Assembly: GCA_001784805.1 (NCBI GenBank)
Contig: MFSE01000021.1
Location: 68,241 to 117,215 of the forward strand
Reading direction: 5' to 3'
Length of the DNA stretch: 48,975 nucleotides
DNA from: Candidatus Moranbacteria bacterium RIFOXYA12_FULL_35_19
GTDB lineage: Bacteria; Patescibacteriota; Minisyncoccia; Moranbacterales; UBA2206
The notes beneath the pieces were generated by a model. The model worked only from the letters and a program-made list of their open reading frames with translations, made no database searches and was not told where the DNA came from. The position numbers were made by a program, and so were the translations under genes. Every line of letters begins with the position of its first letter. The stretch's first letter is position 1. Positions 2,206 to 39,804 of this stretch are shown here, in pieces.

Positions 2206-2676
2206 CTACAAAAATACAAAATATTACAAAAATACAAAAGTACAAAAAATGGATGAAGATAAAGTTATTTATAAAGAGCTGAGTTATGAAGTAATGGGAT
2301 CGATATTCGAAGTGTTCAAGGAATTAGGATATGGTTTCAAAGAAAGATATTATGAGGATGCCATTGCTAAGGAATTTGAAAACAGAAAAATAAAATTCAA
2401 AAGACAAATACCCTATAAACTAAGATATAAAGGCGAAATAGTCGGAAGTTTTAGATTTGATTTTCTTGTGGAAAATAAAATTATAGTTGAATTAAAAAGA
2501 GGAGACTATTTTTCAAAGAATAATATGACTCAAGTTTTGCAATATTTGAAAGCAGCAAATCTAAAGTTAGGAATTTTGATTAACATAACAAGTGGCGGTG
2601 TGAAATTTAAAAGAATTCTTAATATAAATTAATTTTTGTACATTTGTATTTTTGTACAATTTTTGTAATTTTGTAG
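2206..2676. mobile_element. Palindromic element with ~43-bp TACAAAA-type arms whose loop is the GxxExxY gene
   Basis: Left arm 2206-2248 ctacaaaaatacaaaatattacaaaaatacaaaagtacaaaaa; right arm 2633-2676 reverse-complements to ctacaaaattacaaaaattgtacaaaaatacaaatgtacaaaaa. Confidence 0.65.
2249..2632 (+). CDS. GxxExxY protein (PDDEXK_3-like nuclease family)
   Basis: ELGYGFKERYYEDAI (GxxExxY motif), FRFDFLVENKIIVELKRG (D-Xn-ExK pattern). Confidence 0.88.
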   Translation: MDEDKVIYKELSYEVMGSIFEVFKELGYGFKERYYEDAIAKEFENRKIKFKRQIPYKLRYKGEIVGSFRFDFLVENKIIVELKRGDYFSKNNMTQVLQYLKAANLKLGILINITSGGVKFKRILNIN

Positions 2677-2679
2677 TGT

Positions 2680-5640
2680 ATGTTTAAAAAAGTTGAGGCG
2701 AGGCAAAAATATTCGCAGATGGAAGAAGAGGTAATTAAATTTTGGAGAGAGGATCAGATTTTCGAAAAATCTGTCTCGATGAGGGATAAAAAAGACTCCT
2801 ATGTTTTTTATGATGGACCTCCCTTTATCACAGGAGTTCCGCATTATGGAACACTGCTTTCTTCAATTATTAAAGATATTGTCCCGAGATATTGGACAAT
2901 GAAAGGTAAACGAGTGGAGAGGCGATGGGGTTGGGATTGTCATGGTCTTCCGGCAGAAAATTTGGTGGAGAAAAAATTAGGCATTAAAGATAAAAGGGAT
3001 GTTTCGAAAATTGGATTGGAAAAATATATTGAAACTTGCAGAAACGAGATGGTTCAAGGTGGAAATGAATGGGAAAACACCATTGAAAGAATTGGACGGT
3101 GGGTAGAATTCAAAAATGCTTACAGAACCATGGACAAAGAGTATATGGAAAGTGTTTGGTGGGCTTTCAAAACTTTGCACGAAAAAGGAAAAATTTATGA
3201 AGGCGAAAAAGTCCTGATGTATTGCACTCGCTGTGCTACCCCAATTTCAAAAGCCGAAGTGGCGATGGATAATAGTTATAAGGTTGTCACTGACCCATCG
3301 GTTTATGTGAAATTTAAGTTGGAAGGTGAAGAAAATAAATATTTGTTAGTTTGGACAACTACGCCTTGGACACTAATTTCCAATAGTGCTATTGCGGTGA
3401 ACAAATCAATAAAATATAGCGAGATTGAATATGAAAATGAAATTTTGATTATGGCCGATGCTCTAGTTGAGAAAGCTATGACCAATGAAAAACATGAGCC
3501 ATTAGAATATAAAAAATTAAAAACTTACAGCGGAGAAGAATTGGTTGGCAGGAGTTATGAACCTTTATTTGATATAAATATAAACAAAGATAATGCTTTT
3601 AAGATTTGGCATGCAGATTTTGTGCATGATGAAGAAGGCACGGGAATAGCTCATGAATCACCAGCTTATGGCGAAGAAGATTACGAATTGAGCAAGAAAA
3701 ATAATTTTCCGTGGATAATGTCTACCGATGAAAATGGAATTTATACTTATGGCAGATGGCAGGGCAAAAATATTTGGGAGGTAAACAAAGAAATCGCCAA
3801 AACACTTTTGGCCGAGGACGTTGTTTTCAAAATTAACTACATTGATCATGAATATCCACATTGTCATCGTTGCGCAACTAAGCTAATGTACCGTGCTCAT
3901 CCAAGTTGGTTTATGAATATTGACGGGCAAAAATCAGAAATGCTCTCGCAAAATAAAAACATTAATTGGTTTCCGGAACATTTTAAGGATAAGAGATTTA
4001 AACATACAGTTGAAACCGCCCCCGATTGGAATTTGAGTCGAGATCGTTTTTGGGCTACGCCAATTCCAGTTTGGCGGGGAGAAAAAAGTGATGGCACGAT
4101 GGTGACAAAAGTGGTGGGAAGTTATCAAGAACTCAAAGAACTTTCTGGTGCGGAGCTTCCGGACTATCATTTGCCGTATGTGGATAATATAACTTTCGAA
4201 TTGGATGGAGTGAAAATGAAGCGAGTGGAAAAAGTGATGGATTGTTGGTTTGAATCAGGCTCGATGCCTTTTGCTCAATTTCATTATCCTTTTGAAAATC
4301 GTGAAAAATTTGAAGAAAATTTCCCAGGAGATTTCATCTCGGAATATGTTGGACAAGTCAGAGCGTGGTTTTATTATCTACATGCAATTTCAGTAGGACT
4401 TTTTGGTAAAGAAGCTTTCAAAAATGTAATTGTGACGGGGACAATTGCTGGGGCTGATGGCAAGAAGATGTCAAAATCTTTGGGAAACTATACAGATCCA
4501 AATATTCTTTTTGAAAAATATAGTGCTGATGCGCTTAGATACTTATTTGCTAATTCACCATTACTCAACGGAGAGGATTTTATCTTGACCGACAAAGATG
4601 TTTCGGATATTCAAAGAAAATTAGGAACTCTCTGGCAAAGCTATAGTTTTTTTGTGATGTATGCCAATGTGGATAAATGGATTCCCAAAGAAAATAATGA
4701 AGCACTTCGAGGGGGCAATTTGTTAGACAAATGGATTGTTTCAAAATTGCATGAATTAATTAAAGTGGTGGATGAAAATATGCTTGCTTATGATTTGCCA
4801 AATGCAACAAAGCCAATCATGGATTTTATCGACAATCTCTCCAATTGGTACATTCGCCGAAGCCGAAAGCGATTTTGGAAATCGGAAAATGATGGGGATA
4901 AAAATGAAGCTTATGAAACATTGCATTACGTTTTGATAACTTTAGCAAAATTAATGGCACCGTTTACGCCGTTTATTGCGGAGGAGATTTTTAGGAACTT
5001 GACTTCGAATACCTCACCCCAACCCTCTCCTTATAAAGGAGAGGGAGAAATCACCCCTTCTCCTTTACAAGGAGAGGGTGCCCGTAGGGCGGATGAGGTG
5101 GATTCCGTACATCTAGCTGATTTCCCAATCGCCGATGAAAAATTGATTGATGAAAAATTGAATAAGGAAATGGAAGAAACGAGAAATATTATCACCGAAG
5201 CTTTGCAGTTGCGTGCCAAGGCGGGGATAAAAGTTCGTCAACCTCTATCCGAATTACTAATTACTAATTGCGAATTACGAGCGGAATTTTTAGATATAAT
5301 AAAAGAAGAAGTAAATATTAAACAAATTACACAAGACAAAAATGCGGAGAATATTAAGCTCGATACCAAAATTACCCCCGAACTCAAACTCGAAGGTCAA
5401 GCGCGAGAGGTAATTCGGTTTATCCAAGAGATGCGAAAAGAGGCGGGTTATGAAGTTGACAATCGAATTGAAATAGTTTATAGTGGCAAATCAGAAGTTC
5501 TTGAAAAATTTAATATGCTTATCGCCAAAGAAACTTTGGCTGAAAATATATCGTCTTCCAACGAAATTTCCGAAGCCGATCTCAAAAAAACTTTTGAGAT
5601 GGATGGGGAGAAGTTGGAAATTGGGATTAGGAAAATTTAG
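2680..5640 (+). CDS. ileS: Isoleucyl-tRNA synthetase
   Basis: YDGPPFITGVPHYG (HIGH-type region), WGWDCHGLPAENLVEKKLG, KMSKSLGNYTDP (KMSKS). Confidence 0.96.
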   Translation: MFKKVEARQKYSQMEEEVIKFWREDQIFEKSVSMRDKKDSYVFYDGPPFITGVPHYGTLLSSIIKDIVPRYWTMKGKRVERRWGWDCHGLPAENLVEKKLGIKDKRDVSKIGLEKYIETCRNEMVQGGNEWENTIERIGRWVEFKNAYRTMDKEYMESVWWAFKTLHEKGKIYEGEKVLMYCTRCATPISKAEVAMDNSYKVVTDPSVYVKFKLEGEENKYLLVWTTTPWTLISNSAIAVNKSIKYSEIEYENEILIMADALVEKAMTNEKHEPLEYKKLKTYSGEELVGRSYEPLFDININKDNAFKIWHADFVHDEEGTGIAHESPAYGEEDYELSKKNNFPWIMSTDENGIYTYGRWQGKNIWEVNKEIAKTLLAEDVVFKINYIDHEYPHCHRCATKLMYRAHPSWFMNIDGQKSEMLSQNKNINWFPEHFKDKRFKHTVETAPDWNLSRDRFWATPIPVWRGEKSDGTMVTKVVGSYQELKELSGAELPDYHLPYVDNITFELDGVKMKRVEKVMDCWFESGSMPFAQFHYPFENREKFEENFPGDFISEYVGQVRAWFYYLHAISVGLFGKEAFKNVIVTGTIAGADGKKMSKSLGNYTDPNILFEKYSADALRYLFANSPLLNGEDFILTDKDVSDIQRKLGTLWQSYSFFVMYANVDKWIPKENNEALRGGNLLDKWIVSKLHELIKVVDENMLAYDLPNATKPIMDFIDNLSNWYIRRSRKRFWKSENDGDKNEAYETLHYVLITLAKLMAPFTPFIAEEIFRNLTSNTSPQPSPYKGEGEITPSPLQGEGARRADEVDSVHLADFPIADEKLIDEKLNKEMEETRNIITEALQLRAKAGIKVRQPLSELLITNCELRAEFLDIIKEEVNIKQITQDKNAENIKLDTKITPELKLEGQAREVIRFIQEMRKEAGYEVDNRIEIVYSGKSEVLEKFNMLIAKETLAENISSSNEISEADLKKTFEMDGEKLEIGIRKI
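5011..5103. repeat. Palindromic element inside ileS, in frame (encodes TSPQPSPYKGEGEITPSPLQGEGARRADEVD)
   Basis: acctcaccccaaccctctccttataaaggagaggg...ccttctcctttacaaggagagggtgcccgtagggcggatgaggtg; stem-loops ccctctcc/ggagaggg; related sequence in tgt at 16939. Confidence 0.85.
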
Positions 5641-6588: not shown

Positions 6589-6591
6589 ATT

Positions 6592-6674
6592 TTACGAAAT
6601 ACGAAATTAACTAAATACGAAAGTACGAAAGGGAGTTTGAATGTTTCGTATTTCGTTCATTTCGTAGTTCGTAA
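6592..6674. repeat. Intergenic palindrome (TACGAAA-type)
   Basis: ttacgaaatacgaaattaactaaatacgaaagtacgaaa ... tttcgtatttcgttcatttcgtagttcgtaa. Confidence 0.8.
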
Positions 6675-6682
6675 ATAATATT

Positions 6683-7483: not shown

Positions 7484-7570
7484 ATAGAGAGTAAAATAAA
7501 ATAAAGGGGATAAAAGCCGAAAGGCTAAAAAAACAAGAAGGCAAGATTCCTTGCTTTACCCGAAAAATTT

Positions 7571-7858
7571 ATCCCCCCTCACTTTATTTTATGTACTATG
7601 TCTACTTATTAAAAAGTATAAAAACAGGAAAACATTATATTGGATGCACAAGCGATCTAAGAAGAAGATTCGCAGAGCATAATAATGGAAAAAGTTTTTA
7701 TACTAAGGATAAAAGACCATGGGAATTAAGATATTATGAAGCTTTTTATTCTCAAGAGGATGCTTTTAGTAGAGAAAAACAATTAAAGAAAAATAAAAGC
7801 GGGTATAGAGAATTAAAAAGAAGATTAGAAAAAAGCTTAAAATAAAGTGAGGGGGGAT
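7571..7858. mobile_element. Palindromic element with perfect 20-bp terminal inverted repeats whose loop is the GIY-YIG gene
   Basis: atcccccctcactttatttt (7571-7590) and aaaataaagtgaggggggat (7839-7858) are exact reverse complements. Confidence 0.7.
7591..7845 (+). CDS. GIY-YIG nuclease family protein
   Basis: MYYVYLLKSIKTGKHYIGCTSDLRRRFAEHNNGK...FSREKQLKK. Confidence 0.93.
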   Translation: MYYVYLLKSIKTGKHYIGCTSDLRRRFAEHNNGKSFYTKDKRPWELRYYEAFYSQEDAFSREKQLKKNKSGYRELKRRLEKSLK

Positions 7859-7886
7859 GAACGGGAAACAAAAACAAAAACAAAAA

Positions 7887-28013: not shown

Positions 28014-28730
28014 ATGAACAGCGGTATATTATATATTATTGCAACTCCGATTGGAAACCTTTCTGACGTTACCTTTCGTGCAGTGGAAACTTTGCAAAAG
28101 GTTGATTTGATTGTGTGTGAGGATACGCGGAATTCTAAAAAACTTTTAGATCGCTATGAAATTTCAACTCCGACAATGTCTTTTTATCAAAATTTAAAAA
28201 GTGGAGGAAGTATAAAACCTGTGCCGAAATTAAATTTAATAATCCAAGAATTGAAAAGTGGAAAAAACTTGGCGCTTATCACTGACGCTGGAACTCCTGG
28301 GATTTCTGACCCAGGAAATCAGCTGGTAGCGAGTGCTGTGGAAAATAATATTGCCGTTATCCCGATTCCCGGTGTTTCAGCCCTCACAACTCTTGCAAGT
28401 GTTTCCGGAATTGATTTGACACAGTTTGTATTTTTAGGTTTTCCGCCTCACAAAAAAGGCCGTATGTCTTTTATAAAGAAAATTACTGAAAGTGAATATC
28501 CGGTAATACTTTTTGAATCTAAATATAGGATAATGAAATTAATTGCGGATTTGGCGGATTTTGGCGGATCGAACGGAGGAGAAAAAATAAATATTATCAT
28601 TGGCAGAGAATTAACGAAAATGTTTGAGGAGATTATAAGAGGCAGTGCAGAAAAAGTTCTTGATTATTTAAAGACTGACGACAATAAGCAGAAAGGAGAA
28701 TTTGTAGTTATAACATATAAAGAAAAATGA
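28014..28730 (+). CDS. rsmI: 16S rRNA (cytidine(1402)-2'-O)-methyltransferase
   Basis: LYIIATPIGNLSDVTFRAVETLQKVDLIVCEDTRNSKKLL, ALITDAGTPGISDPG, VIPIPGVSAL. Confidence 0.95.
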   Translation: MNSGILYIIATPIGNLSDVTFRAVETLQKVDLIVCEDTRNSKKLLDRYEISTPTMSFYQNLKSGGSIKPVPKLNLIIQELKSGKNLALITDAGTPGISDPGNQLVASAVENNIAVIPIPGVSALTTLASVSGIDLTQFVFLGFPPHKKGRMSFIKKITESEYPVILFESKYRIMKLIADLADFGGSNGGEKINIIIGRELTKMFEEIIRGSAEKVLDYLKTDDNKQKGEFVVITYKEK

Positions 28731-29176
28731 CAATTTATACGAAGAATGGAGAAACTTTATTATATGAGAAGGAATCTTATATTTTAAGAGGAATTTTCAT
28801 GAGAATTTATAATGAGTTAGGGCCTGGCCACAAAGAGTCTGTTTATGCAAATGTTTTTAAACAAGAGCTGAAAAACGAAAACATTCCTTTTGAAAGTGAA
28901 AAACAAATAAATTTACGAAGAAATAATGAGCTAATAGGAAAATTAAGAATTGATTTCTTAGCTTTTGGGAAAATAATAGTTGAATTTAAGGCAGTGGAAT
29001 TTTTATTGCCAGTAGCTAAAAAGCAAGTGCAATCTTATCTAGTAGCTTCTGAATATAAATTAGCATTCCTAGTTAATTTTGGAGGAAATAAATTAGAAAT
29101 AATAAGAAAAGTAAATGATAGAGCGAAAAAATCCGTCTTATCCGCCTCTAAATCCGCTCTATCCGCAATATTATGA
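28727..29176 (+). CDS. GxxExxY protein (PDDEXK_3-like nuclease family)
   Basis: ELGPGHKESVYANVF, LRIDFLAFGKIIVEFKAVE; ATGA overlaps with both neighbouring genes. Confidence 0.9.
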   Translation: MTIYTKNGETLLYEKESYILRGIFMRIYNELGPGHKESVYANVFKQELKNENIPFESEKQINLRRNNELIGKLRIDFLAFGKIIVEFKAVEFLLPVAKKQVQSYLVASEYKLAFLVNFGGNKLEIIRKVNDRAKKSVLSASKSALSAIL

Positions 29177-30669: not shown

Positions 30670-31539
30670 ATGCTTGTTGACACCCACGCTCATCTAAATT
30701 TCTCCGCCTATAAAAATGACGCGGAGGAAGTAATTAAAAGAACCCTGGCAGGGGGTGTTTTTGTGATTAATGTGGGGTCGCAATATTCGACCAGTGTGCG
30801 GGCGGTGGAATATGCCAAGAAATATGATGGACTATATGCGGCCATTGGAATTCATCCGCTCCATCTTCAAGCGCAAAAATTTTCCTATCATGATCCAGAT
30901 GAAATTGAAGAGGTTGAAATTGAAACGGCTGGAGAAATTTTTGAAAAAGAAAAATATTTGGAGTTGGTGAAAAATTCAAAAGTGGTGGCGATTGGAGAAG
31001 TGGGATTGGACTATCATCATTTTGAATCTGAAGACCCGCCTCGCGTCGACGAAGCGTCTCCGCGAGTCGAGGCGGGTAATATTGAAGATTTAAAAAATAA
31101 ACAAAAAGAAATATTTTTGGAATTTATTAATCTAGCAAATGAAGTTCGAAAACCAATTATGATCCACTGTTGGGATGCGTATGATGATTTATATGAAATA
31201 CTGGAAAAAAACCCAGTGGGAAAAAGGGGCGTGATTCATAGTTTTGTGGGAAGTTTCAAAACAGCCAAGAAATTTATCGAGCTTGGCTATTTGATCGGAC
31301 TTAATGGTATAATCACTTATGGGATAAGTTATGATAAATTAATTAGAGAGGTTGGCTTAAAAGACATAGTCTTGGAAACAGATTGTCCGTATCTCACTCC
31401 TGTGCCAAAAAAAGGTGAGCGAAATGAACCGATATATGTGAAATATGTGGCGCAAAAAATTGCCGAAGTGAAAGAAATTTCACCGGAAGAAGTGGAGAAA
31501 ATAACCACGGAAAATGCAAATCGATTATTTAGAATATAG
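30670..31539 (+). CDS. tatD: TatD family metal-dependent DNase
   Basis: MLVDTHAHLNFSAYKND, IGIHPLH, IGEVGLDYH, PIMIHCWDAYDDL, VLETDCPYLTP. Confidence 0.93.
   Translation: MLVDTHAHLNFSAYKNDAEEVIKRTLAGGVFVINVGSQYSTSVRAVEYAKKYDGLYAAIGIHPLHLQAQKFSYHDPDEIEEVEIETAGEIFEKEKYLELVKNSKVVAIGEVGLDYHHFESEDPPRVDEASPRVEAGNIEDLKNKQKEIFLEFINLANEVRKPIMIHCWDAYDDLYEILEKNPVGKRGVIHSFVGSFKTAKKFIELGYLIGLNGIITYGISYDKLIREVGLKDIVLETDCPYLTPVPKKGERNEPIYVKYVAQKIAEVKEISPEEVEKITTENANRLFRI
31034..31077. repeat. GC-rich palindrome in frame inside tatD (DPPRVDEASPRVEAG)
   Basis: acccgcctcgcgtcgacgaagcgtctccgcgagtcgaggcgggt. Confidence 0.85.
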
Positions 31540-31542
31540 CGC

Positions 31543-31659
31543 TGTCATTCCTGCGAAAGCAGGAATCTAGTGTAAAAACTAAATTAAATAGTGCTATATA
31601 AAAGATTTATATTTCTAATATGATTTTGTGACTAGATTCCCGCCTACGCGGGAATGACA
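31543..31659. repeat. Pair of inverted dRS3-like repeats forming a ~117-bp composite palindrome
   Basis: tgtcattcctgcgaaagcaggaatctagt (31543) ... actagattcccgcctacgcgggaatgaca (31631). Confidence 0.8.
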
Positions 31660-31684
31660 AGGATAGATTTTTAATGCAATAAAT

Positions 31685-38226: not shown

Positions 38227-39804
<1,578 letters not shown>

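Follow-up and report, generated by a model that had tools for sequence, protein, structure and literature searches.

Why should a small nuclease gene exactly fill the loop of a long palindrome? The question is raised by a locus upstream of ileS in the window, that is, the whole 48,975-nt stretch of DNA analysed here (G000:C21:68241-117215, from the G000 genome of 988,700 bp). We propose, with a probability of roughly 0.6, that the locus is a palindromic mobile element and that its homing-like spread at the DNA level is driven by its small nuclease. The mobility of the element is well supported by sequence comparison; that the nuclease is the driver of the spread is what we infer.

The nuclease gene and its palindromic arms

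The gene order around the element is argS (8-901), a glycosyltransferase gene (1034-2200), the element and ileS (2680-5640). The left arm (2206-2248, plus strand), with the repeated word TACAAAAN, adjoins the ATG of a GxxExxY/PDDEXK_3 nuclease ORF of 127 aa (2249-2632, plus strand); the TAA ends at 2632, and the right arm (2633-2676, plus strand) begins directly after it and ends just before the ileS ATG at 2680. The arms thus abut both start and stop codons, as the preliminary description had stated. It had also placed the element in an argS-ileS interval: the element does lie upstream of ileS, but the glycosyltransferase gene also stands between it and argS. A repeat search gives ungapped arms of 31 nt (2218-2248 and 2633-2663), 90% complementary and 384 nt apart; the longer arms described for 2206-2676 hold as a gapped local alignment, with an inverted-repeat score of 30 against a shuffle maximum of 12.5. 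Only two of the 46 main ORFs of the window score above 14.5, this one (30) and the GIY-YIG ORF 7591-7845 (21.5), which sits within a 24-nt inverted repeat (96%, 7568-7861) of a different arm sequence, CCCCCCTCACTTTATTTTA. An arm nearly identical to the left arm is present at the orthologous site in the congener G004, and the end of the glycosyltransferase gene and the element match G004 as well, unlike the IleS N-terminus, which is 67% identical to that of G004 and 89% identical to that of G012, a member of another genus. Recombination next to the element is possible from these identities.

The encoded protein belongs to the family to which it had been assigned, scoring above the curated cut-offs of both TIGR04256 (119.7 bits, cut-off 35, E 8e-35) and PF13366 (116.7 bits, cut-off 22, E 9e-34). 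Its motif residues E32, D71, E81-x-K83 and Q95-x3-Y99 are intact; among 152 proteins, D71, K83 and Y99 are invariant, and Q95 is found in 151, E32 in 146 and E81 in 140. The AlphaFold2 model (pLDDT 92) finds its best Foldseek match in Cas4 SSO0001 (4ic1, E 8e-5), followed by weaker matches to AdnA, lambda-exonuclease-like proteins, a Holliday-junction resolvase and I-Bth0305I (3r3p); when solved structures were compared by sequence, none matched clearly. The GxxxE-like, D, ExK and QxxxY motifs are common to Cas4, RecB and lambda exonuclease, from which the window protein differs in being minimal (127 aa), with no link to a CRISPR or recombination operon seen. Together with the conserved residues, dN/dS values of 0.04-0.16 in nine pairs of GxxExxY orthologs indicate that the nuclease function is kept under strong purifying selection. 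As to a defence role, PADLOC gave only weak Cas4/Csn2 matches, and no phage family was found. A GxxExxY relative of 34% identity, annotated as a PD-(D/E)XK nuclease, lies at KC292026.1 91528-91872 in Halogranum tailed virus 1.

The window element is one case of a general rule across many bacterial phyla. The G000 genome has seven GxxExxY genes, and at least one such gene is present in 33 of the 56 genomes searched. Inverted repeats were scored by aligning 110 nt from each side of the gene, taken upstream of the matched domain and downstream of the stop codon. With the 99.9th percentile of dinucleotide shuffles as threshold and shifted intervals of the same locus as controls, 52 of the 75 GxxExxY genes of the order, which comprises relatives of Ca. 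Moranbacteria, exceeded the threshold, versus 1 of 447 control intervals. In a scan of public genomes, 80 loci comprised 44 free-standing copies and 36 read in frame within a larger reading frame, a proportion that is not a population frequency because the scan was seeded with a four-sequence alignment of the in-frame clade and is biased to it. The free-standing loci exceeded their own shuffles in 30 of 44 cases. So did 21 of the 30 loci from outside Patescibacteria; Omnitrophota, Spirochaetes, Halomonas, Billgrantia, Bacteroidetes, Planctomycetes and Desulfobulbaceae are among the groups represented. A search of the open-licence literature, and hence weak evidence of absence, found no report that links GxxExxY genes to palindromes.

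The nuclease is not the only cargo of this kind. Genes of the order for PF05635, the 23S rRNA intervening-sequence protein (IVP), lie in word-repeat palindromes in 24 of 30 cases (L037, L268-L296), with words of their own such as CATGAAACATG and AACAGTGAACAG, unlike those of GxxExxY; flanks of GIY-YIG genes of relatives exceed their shuffles in 8 of 29. Since this cargo is also flanked, the architecture is wider than the GxxExxY nuclease.

Arm words and the states of insertion sites

The arms are repeats of short words of 6-10 nt, among them TACAAA, TACGAA, TACTAA, GCGGAT, CACGAAT, CACGGAT, TCCGAAT and TGATT. These dialects were assigned by simple counting of words, and 50 loci received no label. 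On the tree of 152 proteins, the arm word changes 29 times; 500 label shuffles gave a mean of 65 changes and never fewer than 57. Within the free-standing elements of the order it changes 14 times, against 29.7 when shuffled (minimum 25). The label shuffles ignore the shared history of related rows, so that these numbers, and those for insertion type below, express association and not cause. The arm word follows the nuclease tree, which means that arms and protein travel together. The split between in-frame and free-standing copies needs only two changes (shuffle minimum 29), so in-frame insertion is largely confined to one clade, and that between lepA and recG insertion needs three (shuffle minimum 7).

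Cargo-less palindromes accompany the filled ones. The empty relative that had been reported upstream of atpD (38265-38359) is real, with 41-nt arms that are 83% complementary and the same TACAAA word as the window element; it corresponds to the match G000:C21:106505-106599 of our palindrome model R1 and is itself part of the alignment of that model. Two more empty palindromes built in this way occupy 902-1001 (TACTAA, between argS and the glycosyltransferase gene) and 6591-6675 (TACGAA). For the second GxxExxY ORF of the window (28727-29176, plus strand, 149 aa), only a 3' arm of GCGGAT words is visible, and it is read into the C-terminus. Other palindromes were also observed in the window: a 60-nt inverted repeat of another type with GTCATTCCTGCGAAAGCAGGAATCTAG (31527-31675), to which GTCATTCCGG palindromes upstream of atpD in G002 and G006 are similar, and short palindromes within the coding frames of ileS (5022-5079) and argS (579-630), apparently in-frame insertions of other palindrome families.

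At orthologous sites, filled, empty and clean states exist side by side. Filled sites upstream of ileS are present in G000, G004, G011, G044 and G041. The site is empty in G001 (a TACAAA palindrome, the same word) and G053 (TACTAA type), reduced to a partial arm in G015 and G012, and clean in G003, G020, G028 and G008. The idea that the nuclease gene is cargo of a palindromic mobile element passes this comparison and is supported by the flank counts as well. Congeners differ likewise, and with differing words, at pheT, at frr, in the gap between argS and the glycosyltransferase gene and at atpD. The pheT site is filled with TACTAA in G000, G001 and G006, empty with TACAAA in G004 and clean in G002, G003 and G016; frr is filled with GCTAAT in G000, G002 and G006, empty with TACAAA in G003 and G004 and with GCGAAT in G001, and clean in G005 and G016; the argS-glycosyltransferase gap is empty with TACTAA in G001, TACGAA in G005 and G006 and a GCTAAT type in G004, and clean in G003 and G016. 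G000 and G004 differ at pheT despite LepA segments that are 99% identical; thus, the turnover is recent. No target-site duplications were seen by eye at pheT, frr or the argS-glycosyltransferase site.

The element also enters conserved protein genes. LepA carries the nuclease between PVRMxY and ILNLIDTPGH (or IFNLIDTPGH) in G000, G001 and G004, a position at which their congeners G002, G003 and G006 have just NYKEYI; the same site is occupied in many other Patescibacteria. The RecG site lies between the QR of the motif EQHRFGxxQR and PHxLxMTATP, and further in-frame sites are found in GatB (L161, gene named from sequence) and at a second position in LepA (L142). G000 itself has a cargo-less GCGGAT-word palindrome at this second LepA site and a half-palindrome remnant at the RecG site. 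The host frame continues through the entire unit in lepA, recG and gatB and meets no stop codon. Between G000 and G001, the LepA elements share 51% identity and the hosts 87%. The G001 element is closer to that of L143 (71% identity), although the two host LepA proteins share only 58%. These values point to independent, horizontal acquisition at one site. Unrelated small in-frame palindromes, encoding PHPGPLLEKERG and CLPVGKVGN, occupy the same LepA site in L090 (G019 lepA) and L094 (G015 lepA).

At the junctions we looked for perfect stems of at least 7 bp formed by host sequence and its inverted copy. In lepA and recG, left-junction stems are present in 15 of 36 occupied versus 2 of 37 unoccupied genes (4.7% of random windows), and right-junction stems in 6 of 36 versus 3 of 37; part of the recG stems could be native sequence. 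As only the left side is clear, junction hairpins were dropped as a mark of all inserts. The left-junction stems are compatible with fold-back repair of a break.

How the element may spread

Taken as sequence evidence, these comparisons establish the architecture and its generality, an intact nuclease under selection, the alleles at shared sites, the turnover of dialects and independent acquisition at one site. We propose the following mechanism. Two arms of 6-10-nt words would form a long hairpin around one gene for a minimal RecB/Cas4-type PD-(D/E)XK nuclease. This nuclease may recognise its own dialect, as words or as a hairpin, or else a target that matches, and would cut DNA at such palindromes or targets; repair of the break would then copy the palindrome in, with or without the gene, and cargo-less palindromes would be non-autonomous copies or remnants. 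The recurrent insertion at the same sites supports the homing-like, site-specific behaviour that had been suggested. Two observations need to be considered at the same time. Palindromes without any GxxExxY gene occur in G050 and G029, which counts against the nuclease as driver; and the PF05635 IVP, a four-helix bundle and no nuclease, is also palindrome cargo, so the nuclease is not essential to the architecture.

REPIN/RAYT systems combine dispersed non-autonomous palindromes with a rarer protein-coding partner, and by analogy the palindromes here could be REPIN- or MITE-like units whose movement depends on a Y1 (RAYT-like) transposase from another locus, with the nuclease gene a captured passenger. 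Y1_Tnp genes are indeed present in 28 of 40 genomes, with five matches in G000. Across 31 genera, palindrome number (among the matches listed) correlates with Y1 transposase number at rho 0.61 and with GxxExxY number at rho 0.64, and the partial correlations of 0.38 and 0.44, respectively, do not separate the two; as model R1 matches each palindrome on both strands and the number of its candidates is capped, the palindrome counts are relative. Single genomes argue against the transposase, since G006 has no Y1_Tnp match yet at least 49 palindrome matches and five GxxExxY genes, and G007, G013, G019, G041 and G055 have Y1_Tnp with 0-1 palindrome matches among the matches listed. The arm dialect, moreover, tracks the GxxExxY tree, and the gene is under strong purifying selection, as a passenger need not be. 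We therefore consider this explanation unlikely. The partner proposed here is a PD-(D/E)XK nuclease inside the palindrome, not an external Y1 transposase.

Alternatively, the element could act through RNA, in the manner of a 23S rRNA intervening sequence (IVS), the arm stem being processed by RNase III or by the nuclease, the protein mainly regulating its own message and the unit spreading by rare recombination. The cargo mostly points the same way as its neighbours (84 same and 13 opposite downstream, 94 and 7 upstream), which fits this explanation and suggests that it is expressed from host transcripts. The 23S IVP family has the same hairpin-cargo architecture (the 24 of 30 above), in the Coxiella burnetii IVS heptamers are repeated ahead of the ORF and RNase III carries out the excision (PMC4990558), and tRNA splicing endonucleases are among the weak fold matches of the window protein. 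However, excision without ligation would split the messages of lepA, recG and gatB, whose units are read in frame; the best fold and motif matches act on DNA (Cas4, RecB and lambda-exonuclease types); and site hopping and horizontal acquisition require a DNA step anyway. An RNA-level unit is thus quite improbable. Ordinary intergenic hairpins beside a small gene, whether terminators or chance repeats, would suit the single arms of G000, which are AT-rich and of low complexity, but the chance of this is negligible given 1 of 447 control intervals versus 52 of 75 GxxExxY genes, only 2 of 46 window ORFs, and arms that are built alike but richer in G+C in other phyla and within coding genes.

Relation to known elements and significance

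A homing-like, nuclease-driven palindromic element would stand beside several known systems, the 23S rRNA IVS and Rickettsia palindromic elements being the nearest. Like it, the 23S rRNA IVS with an S23/IVP ORF (PF05635) has one small ORF in a hairpin loop; that of Coxiella has been called a selfish element of unclear origin (PMC4990558). The window element, however, is located outside 23S rRNA, with a glycosyltransferase gene on one side and ileS on the other, its ORF matches PF13366 only and not PF05635/S23, and GxxExxY elements occur between and inside protein genes with many cargo-less relatives. Rickettsia palindromic elements (RPE) are in-frame palindromic repeats in unrelated protein genes, about 150 bp long and with no nuclease cargo described (PMC10969869). 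In-frame insertion is common to them and the GxxExxY relatives in lepA, recG and gatB (the window copy itself is intergenic), but compared with their description the GxxExxY elements hold a full nuclease ORF in the loop, and entire sub-lineages of them are specific to either lepA or recG. The GxxExxY element is thus not an IVS, and with its nuclease cargo it goes beyond RPEs. Homing endonucleases of introns and inteins, such as I-Bth0305I (the weak fold match 3r3p), are likewise encoded by small nuclease genes at fixed sites in conserved genes and acquired horizontally. Here, by contrast, the reading frame of the protein runs through the insert; the inserted frames, on inspection, showed only arms and nuclease, with neither splicing domain nor intron; and the free-standing copies lie between genes in palindromic arms.

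More tentatively, and at somewhat less than even odds, these elements may form a separate class of autonomous mobile element in Patescibacteria and other phyla, in which a mini-nuclease and a clade-specific word hairpin are the whole element. Such a class would home to fixed sites, some of them in frame within lepA, recG and gatB, and would be a source of dispersed cargo-less and in-frame palindromes; palindromes of the IVS and RPE type may be its relatives.

How small palindromic elements such as 23S rRNA IVS and RPE move is a long-standing question. A nuclease with an intact active site inside the palindrome, arms that match its lineage and congeners in filled, empty and clean states make this question directly testable. 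For GxxExxY (TIGR04256), a widespread family whose name merely describes its motif, the proposed mechanism would supply a role, and it would show that a nuclease domain is tolerated inside LepA and RecG.
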